A stretch of 64,000 bases of DNA from Sphingobacteriaceae bacterium. GTDB lineage: Bacteria; Bacteroidota; Bacteroidia; Sphingobacteriales; Sphingobacteriaceae. The position numbers and the translations under genes are program-made. This document shows, piece after piece, positions 12,080 to 32,500 of this stretch. A model generated the notes under the pieces. That model was not told the DNA's origin, did not search any database, and worked only from the letters and a program-made list of their open reading frames with translations. Where the stretch lies: contig JAQSWM010000009.1 in the NCBI GenBank assembly GCA_029266635.1, positions 124,001 through 188,000 of the forward strand. Direction: 5' to 3'. Numbering within the stretch: position 1 is the stretch's first letter; each line of letters begins with the position of its first letter.

Positions 12080-13381
12080 ATGAAGAAGTTTTTCGCCTTT
12101 CTATCGTTCGCATTTATATCGGTTGCCAGCCTCGCTCAACCGGCTGCCACCTCCTTTGAAGTTGATGGTATTAAAGTAATTTTCAAGCCTACTGTGAAAG
12201 ACATCATTAATGTAAGGATGTATTTCCGAGGCGGCGTCACCAATTATCCGGCATCGAAATCGGGCATCGAAAACCTGGCACTTGTAGCTGCCACCGAGTG
12301 CGGCACCAAAAAATATCCGAAGAATACCTTCAAGAACATCCAGGATGAATACGGAATTGCAATCGGAGGATCTTCAGATTACGACTACGGTCGCATTGAG
12401 CTGAACTGCATTTCCAAGCATTTTAAGCAGGGCTGGGATCTGTTTGATGAAGCTGTGAACAATCCTACATTCGAGAGCCGCGAACTGGACCTGATCAAAA
12501 TCAAACTGATCAGTGCTATCAAGCAACGTGAATCTGACCCGGACAGCCATATTGAAGATCTGGCGATGCAAAGCGCATTCAAGAACACGCCTTATGCACA
12601 AGATCCCAATGGAACGGAAGATCTGGTTGCTTCTTCTACGCAGGCCGAAGTAGCAGCCTATTACCGCCAACTGCTAAATAAAAATCGCATGTTTCTGGTG
12701 GTTGTAGGCAAATTATCCAAAGAAGAGCTGCGCCAGAAAATACATGAGTCATTCGCGGGATTACCATCCAAGCCTTATGAGCCGGTTGCGCCCACAGTGC
12801 CCGACTTTACAAAAAACAGCCTTGTTACAGAAGCAAAACAGCTTTCTACAAACTATATCAGTGGTTTAGTAAGCGCCCCGCCAATGCTCAGCCCTGATTA
12901 CGTGCCATATCGCCTGGCTATCTCGCTCCTGGGCGGAGGTTTGTTTCGGGAGTTGCGCACCCGCCTGAACCTTTCCTACAATCCCGGAGCCGAAGTGAAT
13001 TTGTTAAGAGTGCCTTACGCTACTTTCTTTGTCTCCACCAACGATCCAAAAGCATCTGTAGAAGCAATTATCGATCAGATCAGGACACTAAAGTCAGGCA
13101 CGATCCGAAATGAAAACCTTAACTTTTTGAAGGGAAGCTACATCACCAATAACTATATGAAGCTTGAGAGTTCCGGCGATATTGCGGCGGGTTTAGGCGA
13201 GGCAGAAATTATGGGGGATTGGAGAATGGCTGAGGCTTTACCTGAAAAGATTGAAAAAGCAACTCCGCAGGATATTCTGGACGCTGCACGTAAATACATC
13301 ACGGGCATAAAATGGGCTTACATGGGCGATCTTAGCAAAGCAGAATCTACTTTGCCAGCCTTCAGGGAGCTGGTTTATTAG
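12080..13381 (+). CDS. M16 peptidase-like protein, non-catalytic subunit
   Basis: 433 residues with a signal peptide (ISVASLAQ). At the place where the active partner has HLYEH, this protein reads IENLALVAATE, so the zinc site is absent. The substrate-binding R...Y element of M16B proteins is kept (FRELRTRLNLSYNPG). It is the expected inactive partner of the peptidase encoded just upstream, as in mitochondrial processing peptidase and bacterial M16B heterodimers. Confidence 0.9.
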   Translation: MKKFFAFLSFAFISVASLAQPAATSFEVDGIKVIFKPTVKDIINVRMYFRGGVTNYPASKSGIENLALVAATECGTKKYPKNTFKNIQDEYGIAIGGSSDYDYGRIELNCISKHFKQGWDLFDEAVNNPTFESRELDLIKIKLISAIKQRESDPDSHIEDLAMQSAFKNTPYAQDPNGTEDLVASSTQAEVAAYYRQLLNKNRMFLVVVGKLSKEELRQKIHESFAGLPSKPYEPVAPTVPDFTKNSLVTEAKQLSTNYISGLVSAPPMLSPDYVPYRLAISLLGGGLFRELRTRLNLSYNPGAEVNLLRVPYATFFVSTNDPKASVEAIIDQIRTLKSGTIRNENLNFLKGSYITNNYMKLESSGDIAAGLGEAEIMGDWRMAEALPEKIEKATPQDILDAARKYITGIKWAYMGDLSKAESTLPAFRELVY

Positions 13382-28633: not shown

Positions 28634-28641
28634 TACCTTTG
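28634..28641 (+). promoter_or_regulatory. -7 box TACCTTTG, six bases before the ATG
   Basis: Exact TAnnTTTG. The next gene's ATG is at 28648, so the transcript would have almost no leader. An in-frame TTG at 28639 lies inside the box and is not the start. Confidence 0.55.
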
Positions 28642-28647
28642 AAGCCT

Positions 28648-30504
28648 ATGTTAAAAAGCCTTCTTTTTTGCCTGCGGTTTTTTTGCTTTTGGCTGATATT
28701 CTTCTTCGCAGACCGGCTCATCTTTCTTTTTTATTTCCACGATAAAGTATCTACTCTCGGTTTTGGCAACATTGCCAGGACATTTTTATATGGGCTGTGG
28801 ATGGACGCCTCAATGGCTGGATATCTTTCCGTCATACCATTGCTCGGGCTTCTTTTGGTTTGGGCAATCCCCTCCCTGAAAATATCCAGAAAGCCTGTCC
28901 TGATTTATTCCTGGCTGCTCATCGTTCCATTCTCCATCATCGTGGCAGCAAATTTCAATATCTACCGCGAGTGGGGCAGCAAGATCAATTACAGGGCGCT
29001 TGATTTCTTTTTCAACTCTACCCGTGAAGCAGTAGCATCCAGCAGCACATCGCCTGTACTTCTCTCCTTTTCTATCATCGGAGCGCTTATCATATTTTTT
29101 ATCTGGCTATCGCGAAAGCTAATCAAACCCATTCCGCCGCTGCCTGGCGCCCAACGTGCAGTACTGGGCTTTGTGCTCATCGCCCTGACCTTTCTCGCTA
29201 TCCGCGGAGGCTGGCAACTGTCGCCAATGAACGAGAGCATGGCATATTTTTCTGAAAAGCCTATCCTTAACCATGCAGCAATTAACACCGATTGGGCTTT
29301 GATGCATGATATCCTGGCGAATAAATACGGTACAAAAAATCCGTACGCCTATTTCAAGCCCGAAGAAGCAAAAAATATTGTTGCTGATTTATATGCGGTT
29401 CCGAACACCAATACTGAAACCATCCTTACAACCCAGCGCCCCAACGTGGTGGTGATTATCATGGAAAGCTTTACAGCGGACGTGATTGAGAGCCTTGGCG
29501 GCGAGCCGGGCGTTGCCCCGAATATGGAAAAGCTGGCTGCTGATGGGATTTTATTTACGAACATCTATGCTTCCGGCGACCGCACTGATAAAGGCCTGAT
29601 TGGGATATTGAGCGGCTTCCCATCACAGGCTACCCGCAGCATTATCAAGTCGAACAACAAACAGGAAAAACTGCCTTCGCTCTCGCAAACGCTGGCTAAA
29701 CAGGGCTACAAAACTTCATTCTACTATGGCGGAGAAAGCGAGTTTTTCAATGTCAAATCGTACGTACTGAGCCACAATTATCAGAAGCTGGTTGACAAAC
29801 CGACGTTCGACAAAAAGGATATGAACTCCAAGTGGGGTGCCTACGACCATGCGGTTTACAACAAGGCTTTAGCCGATGCAGAGCACGAGCCACAGCCCTT
29901 CTTCTGCGCCATCCAGACGCTCACCAACCACGAGCCATTTGAGCTGCCGGGCACACCAAAGTTCAAGGGAAAAGACGTATCGAACGAGTTCCGCAGCACA
30001 GCCTTTTACTCAGATTCTACACTTGCAGATTATCTCACACAGGCAAAAACTAAGCCCTGGTATAAAAACACTTTGTTCATCGTTGTCGCCGACCATGGGC
30101 ATTTGCTGCCAAAAGCAAAATACGAAATCCAGGATCCGCACCGTTTTCGTATTCCTTTGCTGTTCTATGGCGGGGCTTTAAAGGAGGATGTGCGGGGCAG
30201 GAAAGTTGAGAAGATTGGCAATCAGACGGATATTGCTGCCACCCTTTTTGCTCAAATGAACATTGATCACAGCGACTTCCATTGGAGCAAAGATCTACTG
30301 AACCCCGGAACAAAAGAGTTCAGCTTTTTCGATTGGGATAATGGCTTTGGATTTGTGACGCCGCAACAGGCGGTTTCTTTTGACAACGTGGGTAAGAATG
30401 TTATTTATACGAGAGAAAAACAAGCTGAAGCTGTAGACGATTCCTTAATTAGACAGGGTAAGGCGTATATGCAGAGGGTTTTTCAGGAGTATTTGGATTA
30501 TTGA
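28648..30504 (+). CDS. LTA-synthase-family sulfatase-fold membrane enzyme
   Basis: 618 residues from ATG 28648. About five membrane helices fill residues 1-185. The extracellular domain (about 260-560) has the alkaline-phosphatase fold of LtaS/EptA-type phosphotransferases: VVIIMESFTADVI with metal ligand Glu, GDRTDKGLIG with the Thr nucleophile, and VADHGHLLP with Asp-His ligands. In Gram-negatives such enzymes move phosphoglycerol or phosphoethanolamine onto envelope glycans or lipids. The acceptor is unknown. Confidence 0.88.
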   Translation: MLKSLLFCLRFFCFWLIFFFADRLIFLFYFHDKVSTLGFGNIARTFLYGLWMDASMAGYLSVIPLLGLLLVWAIPSLKISRKPVLIYSWLLIVPFSIIVAANFNIYREWGSKINYRALDFFFNSTREAVASSSTSPVLLSFSIIGALIIFFIWLSRKLIKPIPPLPGAQRAVLGFVLIALTFLAIRGGWQLSPMNESMAYFSEKPILNHAAINTDWALMHDILANKYGTKNPYAYFKPEEAKNIVADLYAVPNTNTETILTTQRPNVVVIIMESFTADVIESLGGEPGVAPNMEKLAADGILFTNIYASGDRTDKGLIGILSGFPSQATRSIIKSNNKQEKLPSLSQTLAKQGYKTSFYYGGESEFFNVKSYVLSHNYQKLVDKPTFDKKDMNSKWGAYDHAVYNKALADAEHEPQPFFCAIQTLTNHEPFELPGTPKFKGKDVSNEFRSTAFYSDSTLADYLTQAKTKPWYKNTLFIVVADHGHLLPKAKYEIQDPHRFRIPLLFYGGALKEDVRGRKVEKIGNQTDIAATLFAQMNIDHSDFHWSKDLLNPGTKEFSFFDWDNGFGFVTPQQAVSFDNVGKNVIYTREKQAEAVDDSLIRQGKAYMQRVFQEYLDY

Positions 30505-30552
30505 TTCTGTGCCGAAATATGATTATATTAGATTTAAAAAGATGGAGAAAAA

Positions 30553-30605
30553 TCATCCATATCTACCGGTATATGGGGAGATATGGATGAAAAAATCATC
30601 CATAT
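30553..30605 (+). promoter_or_regulatory. Three-part inverted repeat able to form two exclusive hairpins
   Basis: Segment 1 (30553-30564, TCATCCATATCT) is perfectly complementary to segment 2 (30579-30590, AGATATGGATGA) with a 14-base loop. Segment 3 (30596-30605, TCATCCATAT) repeats segment 1 and can pair with the last ten bases of segment 2 across a 5-A loop. Only one of the two hairpins can form at a time. The second ends nine bases before the ATG of the orphan lipoprotein gene (30615), so it could hide its translation start. Confidence 0.5.
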
Positions 30606-30614
30606 ATATTAGTT

Positions 30615-31118
30615 ATGCACCATTTTATGCGACACATCCTAAGCTTCATAGTACTTAATTTGACACTTGCTGCTTGTGGTAACAACTCAGCTCACAACGG
30701 TGCTCATCAGTCTGACACAACTCGACAGACTTTGGCTGCTTCGGCGACGAATTTTGCAAATAACGACACACTTATCGTTGACAGACAAGCTGCCGTGTTT
30801 ATAGAGCCTGACAGCATTAGAATTGAACGGGAGAAAAAACAATCAAGTGAAGAAGATTTTTATACTGCAGCTGACGACTATCTGTATTACCTAAGTTCAG
30901 TGAACAAGTTTCTCGATAGCGTTAAACTTAGGAAACTTTATACGACAGACAAGAAATACATTAAGTTCATTAGTAACGACAAGTCTGAGCAATTGATTAA
31001 AATTGACGAACTGCCACAATTATGGAGCATCTATTTCTTTGACCCGAGAAAAAAAGCAAAGGACATAGATATGACTATGGTTTGGGAAGAATACGAGGAA
31101 TATTATAGTAAAAAATAA
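30615..31118 (+). CDS. Orphan lipoprotein, AT-rich, unknown function
   Basis: 167 residues with a lipoprotein signal (NLTLAAC); ATG at 30615 or 30627. The mature part is Asp/Ser/Thr-rich, then charged (IRIEREKKQSSEEDFYTAADDYLYYL) and ends with WEEYEEYYSKK. No family is recognised. Base composition is more AT-rich than the neighbours. It sits between a switch-like repeat and an attC-like inverted repeat, so it has the look of a mobile cassette gene. Confidence 0.65.
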   Translation: MHHFMRHILSFIVLNLTLAACGNNSAHNGAHQSDTTRQTLAASATNFANNDTLIVDRQAAVFIEPDSIRIEREKKQSSEEDFYTAADDYLYYLSSVNKFLDSVKLRKLYTTDKKYIKFISNDKSEQLIKIDELPQLWSIYFFDPRKKAKDIDMTMVWEEYEEYYSKK

Positions 31119-31144
31119 CTCGCTTTTCAGACAGACCAAAAACG

Positions 31145-31280
31145 GTGCATAACACAGCCTTTGCAAAATGGCGGTTGACGTTGTTCTCGATATTTTTCTA
31201 CATTTAACTAAGTTTTGTGCCGGGTGACAATGAAGTGCTTTCTATCCGCCATCTTCGCAAAGCCTTAACCGTTAGCTGCT
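31145..31280. repeat. attC-like imperfect inverted repeat
   Basis: The left arm 31155-31174 (CAGCCTTTGCAAAATGGCGG) pairs with the right arm 31246-31264 (CCGCCATCTTCGCAAAGCC) with one bulged base and two mismatches, around a 71-base centre. Outside the arms lie TAAC (31150-31153) and, in inverted order, GTTAGCT (31271-31277). This order of outer TAAC/GTTA boxes, spacers, inner arms with an extrahelical base and a variable loop is that of integron attC sites. The outer box deviates from GTTRRRY at one position. No integrase is in the window. Confidence 0.45.
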
Positions 31281-31588: not shown

Positions 31589-32500
31589 ATGGAATTCATC
31601 GACTATTATAAAACCTTAGGCATTCCGAAGACAGCCACAGAATCGGAAATCAAATCGGCTTACCGGAAACTTGCCCGTAAGTACCACCCCGACGTAAATC
31701 CCGGAAACAAAGAAGCTGAAGCAAAATTTAAAGAGCTTAATGAGGCAAACGAGGTTTTAAGCAATGCTGAAAACCGCAAGAAATACGACAAATACGGCAA
31801 AGACTGGAAGCACGGCGAGGAGTATGAAAAAGCCCGGGCGCAGCAAAGCCAACAGCAACAACAGTATTCTTCACGCCAGTCCGGATACGGCGGCTTTGGC
31901 GGCCAGGACTATTCTGACTTTTTTGAATCCATGTTTGGAGGTGGCGGGTCATCATTCAACCAGGGGCACGGCAGCAGGTTTAAAGGCCAGGATTTCAACG
32001 CCGAATTGCACCTCGACTTAAAAGACGTTTACACCACGCAATCGCAAATCTTAGACGTAAACGGTGAAAAGATCAGATTAACCATCCCGTCAGGTGTAGA
32101 AAACGGGCAGACGATCAAAATAAAAGGCAAAGGTGCGCCCGGAGCAAATGGCGGGCCAGCCGGCGATCTCTACATCAGGTTCAATGTAAATAACCACACA
32201 GATTTCAAACGCGAAGGCAGCACTTTGTATCAGAACGTAGATTTAAACCTCTACACTTCTGTTTTGGGCGGCGAGATTAATGTAAAAACTTTCGACGGGA
32301 AGGTGAAACTGAAGGTGCCGCCCGGCACTAAAAACGGCACGAAAGTGAAGCTTAAAGGAAAAGGATTTCCGGTGTATAAGAAGGATGGAGAGTTTGGCGA
32401 TATGATTATAACATACCAGATCCAAATCCCAACCAATTTGAGTGAAAAAGAAATCGAGTTGTTTAAAGAACTTCAAAAAATCAGCACCAATGAACACTAA
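31589..32500 (+). CDS. cbpA: CbpA-type DnaJ co-chaperone
   Basis: 303 residues. Residues 1-70 are a J-domain with HPD at 33-35, then a Gln-rich and Gly/Phe linker ([31 protein letters not shown]) and a C-terminal DnaJ substrate-binding double barrel. It lacks the Cys-rich zinc finger, so it is a CbpA/type II J protein that stimulates DnaK. The last bases overlap cbpM by 11, as in other cbpAM operons. Confidence 0.92.

Follow-up and report, generated by a model that had tools for sequence, protein, structure and literature searches.

This locus raises the question of what an attC-like site without a neighbouring integrase is doing behind a single small gene in a Bacteroidota chromosome. It lies in a stretch of 64,000 nucleotides, referred to here as the window (G000:C17:124001-188000), from a genome of 18 contigs and 3.6 Mb that is 95.8% complete. 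G000 denotes this genome and C2, C3, C5, C8, C9, C10 and C17 its contigs, while the remaining G and L numbers denote other genomes and loci. The initial annotation had described an attC-like recombination site behind the gene and considered a lone cassette of the CALIN type. Judging from the comparison with related sequences, we consider it very probable that an integron-like system has an outpost with one cassette here, composed of an attI copy, a cassette and an attC-like hairpin site (Table 1).

Table 1. Features of the outpost and its neighbours, in window positions.
Feature	Position	Strand	Basis or remark
Left neighbour, presumably sulfatase/LTA-synthase-like (named from its sequence)	28639-30504	+	ORF; ends 43 bp before the attI copy
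attI-like landing site	30548-30612	+	93% identical, over 59 bases, to the attI of the contig-8 integrase
attI boxes TCATCCATAT	30553-30562 and 30597-30606		direct
attI box ATATGGATGA	30581-30590		inverted
GTT triplet closing the attI-like site	30612-30614		
Start of the cassette, left side of the outer arm in the circular form	30612-30626	+	14/15 complementary to 31139-31153 (repeat search)
Cassette	30613-31271	+	659 bp; delimited by the complementary ends and the attI copy
Cassette gene, small putative lipoprotein	30615-31118	+	ORF
Cassette end, right half of the outer arm	31139-31153	+	contains R'' GCATAAC
attC-like hairpin site	31147-31277	-	bottom strand modelled; covariance models R1 151.2 bits, R2 128.9 bits
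R'' box GCATAAC	31147-31153	+	inside the cassette end
L'' inner arm	31157-31174	+	pairs with L'
Loop	31175-31245		71 nt, between L'' and L'
L' inner arm	31246-31264	+	pairs with L''
R' box GTTAGCT	31271-31277	+	poor pairing with its own R'' beyond GTTA
Right neighbour, dnaJ/cbpA-like gene	31589-32500	+	ORF; followed by a merR-like gene in 27/29 relatives

The complementarity of the two cassette ends is expected, because the site of a circular integron cassette consists of the cassette's own two ends, and it is the sequence mark of a cassette that circularises and re-integrates. By analogy with the classical system, the cut would fall between G and TT at the cassette borders, and the variable bases of R' are part of the right flank and not of the window cassette. 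The cassette gene had no Pfam match at 1e-5, with LPAM_1 appearing weakly and under its cut-off. Its likelier start is the second methionine at 30627, which opens a predicted signal peptide with LAAC, because position 30615 falls inside the recombination box. The sulfatase gene adjoins dnaJ in none of 29 other dnaJ loci, and the comparison with an empty site was thus without result; the genome samples held no other member of the genus. The right flank opens like a cassette (GTTAGCTGCTATA), but neither a matching end nor a second site could be identified, and a second cassette was therefore rejected. The only exact match of a 13-mer from this flank was the site itself, with five places at two mismatches.

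The inner arms of the site pair, with TAAC, the end of R'', and GTTAGC outside them, so that the description as an attC-like site behind the gene holds. Taken by itself, the single-strand fold of the window site lacked significance (z -0.96; equalled by 32 of 200 shuffles), and the site is accepted as real because of the comparison with homologous sites. For this, a covariance model was built from 23 subtype-A sites (R1), followed by a second model (R2). Unfiltered scoring of window positions 20000-45000 with R2 gave the site as the sole strong match at 128.9 bits, compared to 13.3 bits for the best other place and 14.4 bits for the site's own opposite strand. A second copy lies at C5:24510-24625 with 90% identity, and altogether the genome contains seven more full-length sites and two partial ones at contig ends. 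A covariance hit and further copies in the genome, the two checks proposed in the initial annotation, were both obtained. Searches of Rfam up to E 1 and of plasmid and phage collections gave no match to the window site, and an exact 19-mer of it was absent from viral contigs. Several contigs of the genome end within sites or just behind an integrase (C5:1-71, C9:59353-59423, C10:1-220 and C3:7091 to the end), and the cassette start at the end of C3 has the same sequence as the one at the end of C10. The assembly thus breaks at cassette arrays and probably lacks further cassettes.

Related DNA turned up in 15 of the 301 family genomes, several of them with two copies on one contig, and the sites recur with high identity for one subtype. 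From 31 hand-listed sites, two subtypes with swapped inner stem cores were distinguished, GGCGG/CCGCC and GCCCG/CGGGC. R1 matched both, as well as many-site arrays such as L039, L038 and L033. The sites have the form of an imperfect palindrome with R and L boxes, an unpaired spacer and a terminal loop. In a MAFFT alignment of 23 homologous sites, made independently of the model, 93.2% of the cells are paired as named, as opposed to 43-56% with the partners slid. Among 147 sites, in an alignment fitted to the model, the values are 93.3% and 36-50%; here, 20 of the 23 pairs changed on both sides, with a covariation of 0.643 against 0.07-0.12 when slid. RNAalifold on the top-strand MAFFT alignment returned only four pairs, because MAFFT misaligns the two subtypes; the subtypes were then split and the structure named by hand. 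The inner stem has no bulged base in 132 of the 147 sites, and the commonest bulge column is occupied in nine, which argues that the extrahelical bases read by I2 are not conserved either. On the bottom strand, 294 G.T cells face 91 A.C cells; G on L' with T on L'' occurs 239 times and the reverse 14 times in this model-fitted alignment, and in the unfitted one two of the wobbles are present in 21 and 22 of the 23 sites.

If the sites close circular cassettes, the start of each cassette should be complementary to its own end rather than to the half-site across the border. This was examined without the model's pairs on 200 array sites, a hand-copied subset that excludes some low-scoring matches and many loci with a single site. 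Requiring intact GTT and AAC left 140 of 149 spaced pairs. In these 140 adjacent pairs, cassette start and own end are complementary at the variable positions 5-7 in 87%, whereas agreement is 34% between the R' and R'' boxes of a single physical site (188 sites) and 32% between shuffled partners, where the highest value is 39.5%. The complementarity extends to position 15 and at position 16 is down to 6%; within it, position 11 carries a single fixed mismatch (A.C on the top strand, T.G on the bottom strand) in 104 of the 140 pairs. In other genomes of the class, at loci taken from the best matches of the class sample (121 of 126 matches used), the corresponding values are 94.5% and 30.5% for 91 pairs from 20 loci in 20 genomes. 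The cassettes carry both halves of their own site, the sequence signature of a circular form. Their longest sense ORF exceeds the longest antisense ORF in 195 of 209 cases, with medians of 202 and 60 amino acids.

The integrases found in the genome all lie on contigs other than that of the window, as two full platforms on contig 8 and C10. In 49 integrase neighbourhoods, nine from site-bearing genomes and 40 hand-chosen from the integrase matches, sites stand downstream in the same orientation in 33, upstream in opposite orientation in seven and are absent in nine, in a tally over both models; L155, with one weak opposite-strand match 7.3 kb upstream, is counted among the last. Of the nine site-less neighbourhoods, eight come within 1.6 kb of a contig end, the pattern that repeats would produce, and L161 is intact without a site. 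In contrast to the codirectional majority, the seven integrases of L176-L182 show the classical divergent layout. In 80 named loci, R2 matched 21 of 39 from Bacteroidota, assigned by record name, and none of 41 others, with 47 sites downstream and two upstream. Hosts include Flavobacterium aciduliphilum, Algoriphagus ornithinivorans, Winogradskyella ursingii and Algibacter onchidii. As in integrons, tandem cassettes of one orientation stand beside the integrase, and an attI adjoins its gene. R2 scored no higher than 21.7 bits on 338,646 bases from E. coli and from loci outside Bacteroidota; this value belongs to L253 (Calditrichia), a locus with a canonical IntI, where the weak matches at 1657-1792 and 2636-2771 are perhaps ordinary attC sites.

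R1 matched 84 of the 301 family genomes and the integrase profile 73. Both occur in 57 genomes, sites only in 27 and integrase only in 16 (Fisher p 3.7e-26, with kinship ignored). In the wider sample, R2 matched 267 of 395 genomes of the class, from 146 of the 197 genera represented, a roughly calibrated figure for which 20 best-match loci were checked by end complementarity. Going by the named relatives, the class is probably Bacteroidia.

IntI-like proteins are found with TIGR02249 in most site-bearing genomes, over its cut-off in none of 15. The catalytic R, K, H, R, H and Y motifs are invariant in nine aligned integrases and present in both integrases of the genome. From the K motif to H..LRH, 64-71 residues were counted in the site-associated integrases, compared to 72-74 in Xer-like proteins and 107 in canonical IntI; for a few IntI rows the pattern returned a wrong distance or none. 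Opposite 67 residues of VchIntIA (2a3v) there are 25, so that, as aligned, these integrases are without the I2 insert of IntI of about 42 residues. Two features by which integrons are recognised, the IntI-specific I2 domain and conserved extrahelical bases in the attC sites, were not found. The best NCBIfam model is NF040815 (XerA, cut-off 220 bits), which three of the nine aligned integrases pass; the contig-8 protein scores 218.4. An AlphaFold2 model of the F. aciduliphilum integrase (pLDDT 90) has 2a3v as its best Foldseek match (E 3e-18), and VIA-align gave XerA with Z 24.3 (rmsd 15.1, 267 aligned) and 2a3v with Z 22.6 (rmsd 3.1, 267 aligned). VIA-align puts XerA and IntI4 first for the integrase, in a list from which the absence of other families carries no weight. 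The codirectional integrases have an extra N-terminal domain, which, folded alone (pLDDT 84.6), has the SMARCAL1 HARP domain (4o66) at Foldseek rank 1 with a weak E of 0.68; HARP was absent from the VIA list, and Pfam and PDB sequence searches gave no match. The integrases of L037, L069 and L205 have longer N-termini, in which the domain with the WS..K.W.P motif is seemingly repeated.

Canonical IntI scored over the cut-off in 84 of 296 genomes of the phylum, and only one of the carriers listed belongs to the same class. In a tree of 100 rows, 51 short integrases of Bacteroidota lie on one side of a branch with an SH-aLRT of about 91, below the starred level, and 14 canonical IntI rows, with one IntI row of misread distance, group together (SH-aLRT 100). 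Constraining IntI and the Bacteroidota clade together was not rejected (p-AU 0.72, log-likelihood 15.6 higher), and this quick tree does not fix the place of IntI; a sister of IntI from before the gain of I2 and a loss of I2 both fit it. Further relatives without I2 stand near IntI from outside Bacteroidota: L208 (Spirochaetota), L211 (Firmicutes), L214, L229, L252 and L254 (archaea), and L233, L237, L246 and L257 (Patescibacteria). R2 found no sites beside them, and other site types may exist there.

The attI of the contig-8 integrase lies 91 bp behind the integrase stop. Besides the window copy, copies occur at C5:211407-211471 (86%) and C2:85959-86020 (87%), each heading one cassette, and the attI of the second integrase (C10) recurs at 96% before a three-cassette array at 25 kb of C5. 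Since its left flank is an attI copy, the window site represents an attI outpost and not a randomly stranded attC. The genome G076 has similar attI pairs with 99% and 71%, with a broken integrase frame (C5:70065-70274 of that genome, one stop) near the 99% copy. An attI pair of G156 with 64% did not surpass the best of 300 random stretches, and it was not counted. Generally, the left end of first cassettes is found mostly 60-150 bp behind the integrase stop, after a core like CATATATACAA|GTT, in a survey in which the best boundary of several loci was farther off or low-scoring. In one array (L041, G030:C12), two attI-like sequences precede the cassettes ending at 12405 and 10463. To go by these sequences, an attI-carrying segment could have been captured into the array, a possible route by which attI copies spread. 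Near the G156 array, L070:12577-13431 encodes a second recombinase of another type (K-to-H distance 73).

We propose that an integrase acts in trans from elsewhere in the chromosome. The cassette would excise as a circle whose bottom strand folds into a hairpin with an outer arm of 15 bp, formed by the cassette's own two ends, an inner arm of about 16 bp and a long loop. This hairpin would be recombined by the integrase with double-stranded attI at the GTT triplet, and several attI copies around the chromosome would gain and lose cassettes in this way. The integrase would act without the I2 of IntI, on sites without conserved extrahelical bases. Strand choice may rest on the fixed G.T wobbles, whose top-strand counterparts are A.C mismatches, and the N-terminal domain, a beta-beta-alpha-beta-beta fold with weak likeness to HARP, may help to recognise the hairpin. 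The system works like an integron but is without the domain that defines membership; the recombination itself we infer from the sequences. Counting against this reading are the family genomes that have sites but no integrase at the cut-off applied, or an integrase but no site, as well as the intact neighbourhood L161 and the insignificant fold of the window site alone.

There is close to an even chance that the outpost is a dead relic, left behind when the integrase was deleted from a platform between the sulfatase and dnaJ genes, which would concern its origin and not the nature of the site. The broken integrase frame near the 99% attI copy in G076 indicates that outposts can be relics, and the two full platforms in the genome are compatible with such an origin. 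However, the gap between the sulfatase stop and attI in the window measures only 43 bp and bears no trace of an integrase, and integrase searches found three attI copies of one type with no integrase adjoining. A canonical cassette, whose I2-bearing IntI is lost or in the unassembled part of the genome, would explain the attC-like architecture, and the incomplete assembly with contigs ending in sites leaves room for it; it is improbable, as TIGR02249 passed its cut-off in none of the site-bearing genomes, the arrays adjoin integrases without I2 instead, and the sites show no conserved extrahelical bases.

Host XerC/XerD, rather than the adjacent integrases, could also move the cassettes, given that XerCD can act on a folded single-stranded phage site, that of CTXphi, as a passage of PMC4792948 states. 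This is a very improbable explanation, since arrays and attI are tied to one recombinase clade apart from the host Xer rows. Least credible of all are hairpins that transpose as REP- or MITE-like repeats and merely lie between genes. Such repeats would account for sites recurring with high identity in one subtype, but not for the complementarity of the cassette ends, the attI boundaries and the excess of sense ORFs.

The one-cassette outpost, as preferred here, can be compared to known systems. The classical integron has an outer arm of 7 bp, whereas it measures 15 bp here. Like a chromosomal integron, the system has tandem cassettes, mostly with one sense ORF each, a hairpin site at the cassette end, GTT/AAC boxes, an attI beside the integrase, and a tyrosine recombinase with an IntI-like SP(L/F)D tail. 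Unlike it, the integrase is without I2 and the sites without a conserved extrahelical base, many integrases are codirectional and upstream of the array, there are several attI copies per genome, and the codirectional group carries the extra N-terminal domain. No cassette arrays are known to be served by XerA; these integrases share with XerA-type archaeal recombinases (NF040815) the best NCBIfam model and the missing I2, but only three of nine pass the cut-off, and they stand beside cassette arrays. Loot and colleagues are said to have described, in 2024, attG insertions of single cassettes, which resemble the window in that a single cassette lies far from an integrase; here, however, the left flank is a full attI copy and not a simple genomic site. 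A CALIN likewise has attC-like sites away from an integrase, but the window and the stretch around the site hold one site only, behind an attI copy, with the matching integrase elsewhere in the genome, and the usual threshold in the relevant section of PMC9024848 is at least two attC sites. From the CALIN reading of the initial annotation there remains the single cassette closed by an attC-type site with no integrase beside it, while CALIN itself does not apply. The annotation was right about an attC-type site, and it missed the attI copy, the two matching integrases on other contigs and the non-canonical nature of integrases and sites.

According to sections of PMC9024848, IntI is recognised by its extra domain and one complete integron is reported for Bacteroidetes proper, in Salinibacter; a passage of PMC9668308 calls the IntI-specific domain a defining characteristic. 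The attC models of PMC8352920 cover 11 taxa, and the word "bacteroid" is absent from its main text. Our literature search returned no description of an integron without I2 in Bacteroidia, though one may be in print, as most subscription journals and all preprints were outside the search. Somewhat more tentatively than for the relic, we suggest that most genomes of the sampled class carry an I2-less sister system of IntI, one whose hairpins make no use of extrahelical bases and whose several attI copies are served in trans. Integron searches based on I2 would read it at best as CALIN. The findings also suggest a large bacterial class with a gene-shuffling system mostly unseen by such searches. 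The strand choice of attC is directed by extrahelical bases (PMC2727003), and the joint origin of I2 and these bases was described as a "chicken-egg paradox" that intermediate forms could solve, in a passage of Escudero et al., 2016 (PMC4792948). If the lineage branched off before the gain of I2, it would be such an intermediate form. Cassettes, attI and attC-like hairpins without I2 or conserved extrahelical bases also make the need of I2 for single-strand recombination directly testable.

Finally, the cargo was surveyed by a Pfam scan of 100 proteins, in which no family had more than two matches. They comprise the protein of the window cassette plus 99 products of cassette ORFs, out of 198 such ORFs with 70 amino acids or more. 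Genes for streptomycin adenylyltransferase (2 of 100), mercury transport (MerT, 2) and restriction or abortive infection (GmrSD, Abi_alpha) are among the cargo of the cassettes in L033-L340, together with beta-lactamase-family proteins and superoxide dismutase.
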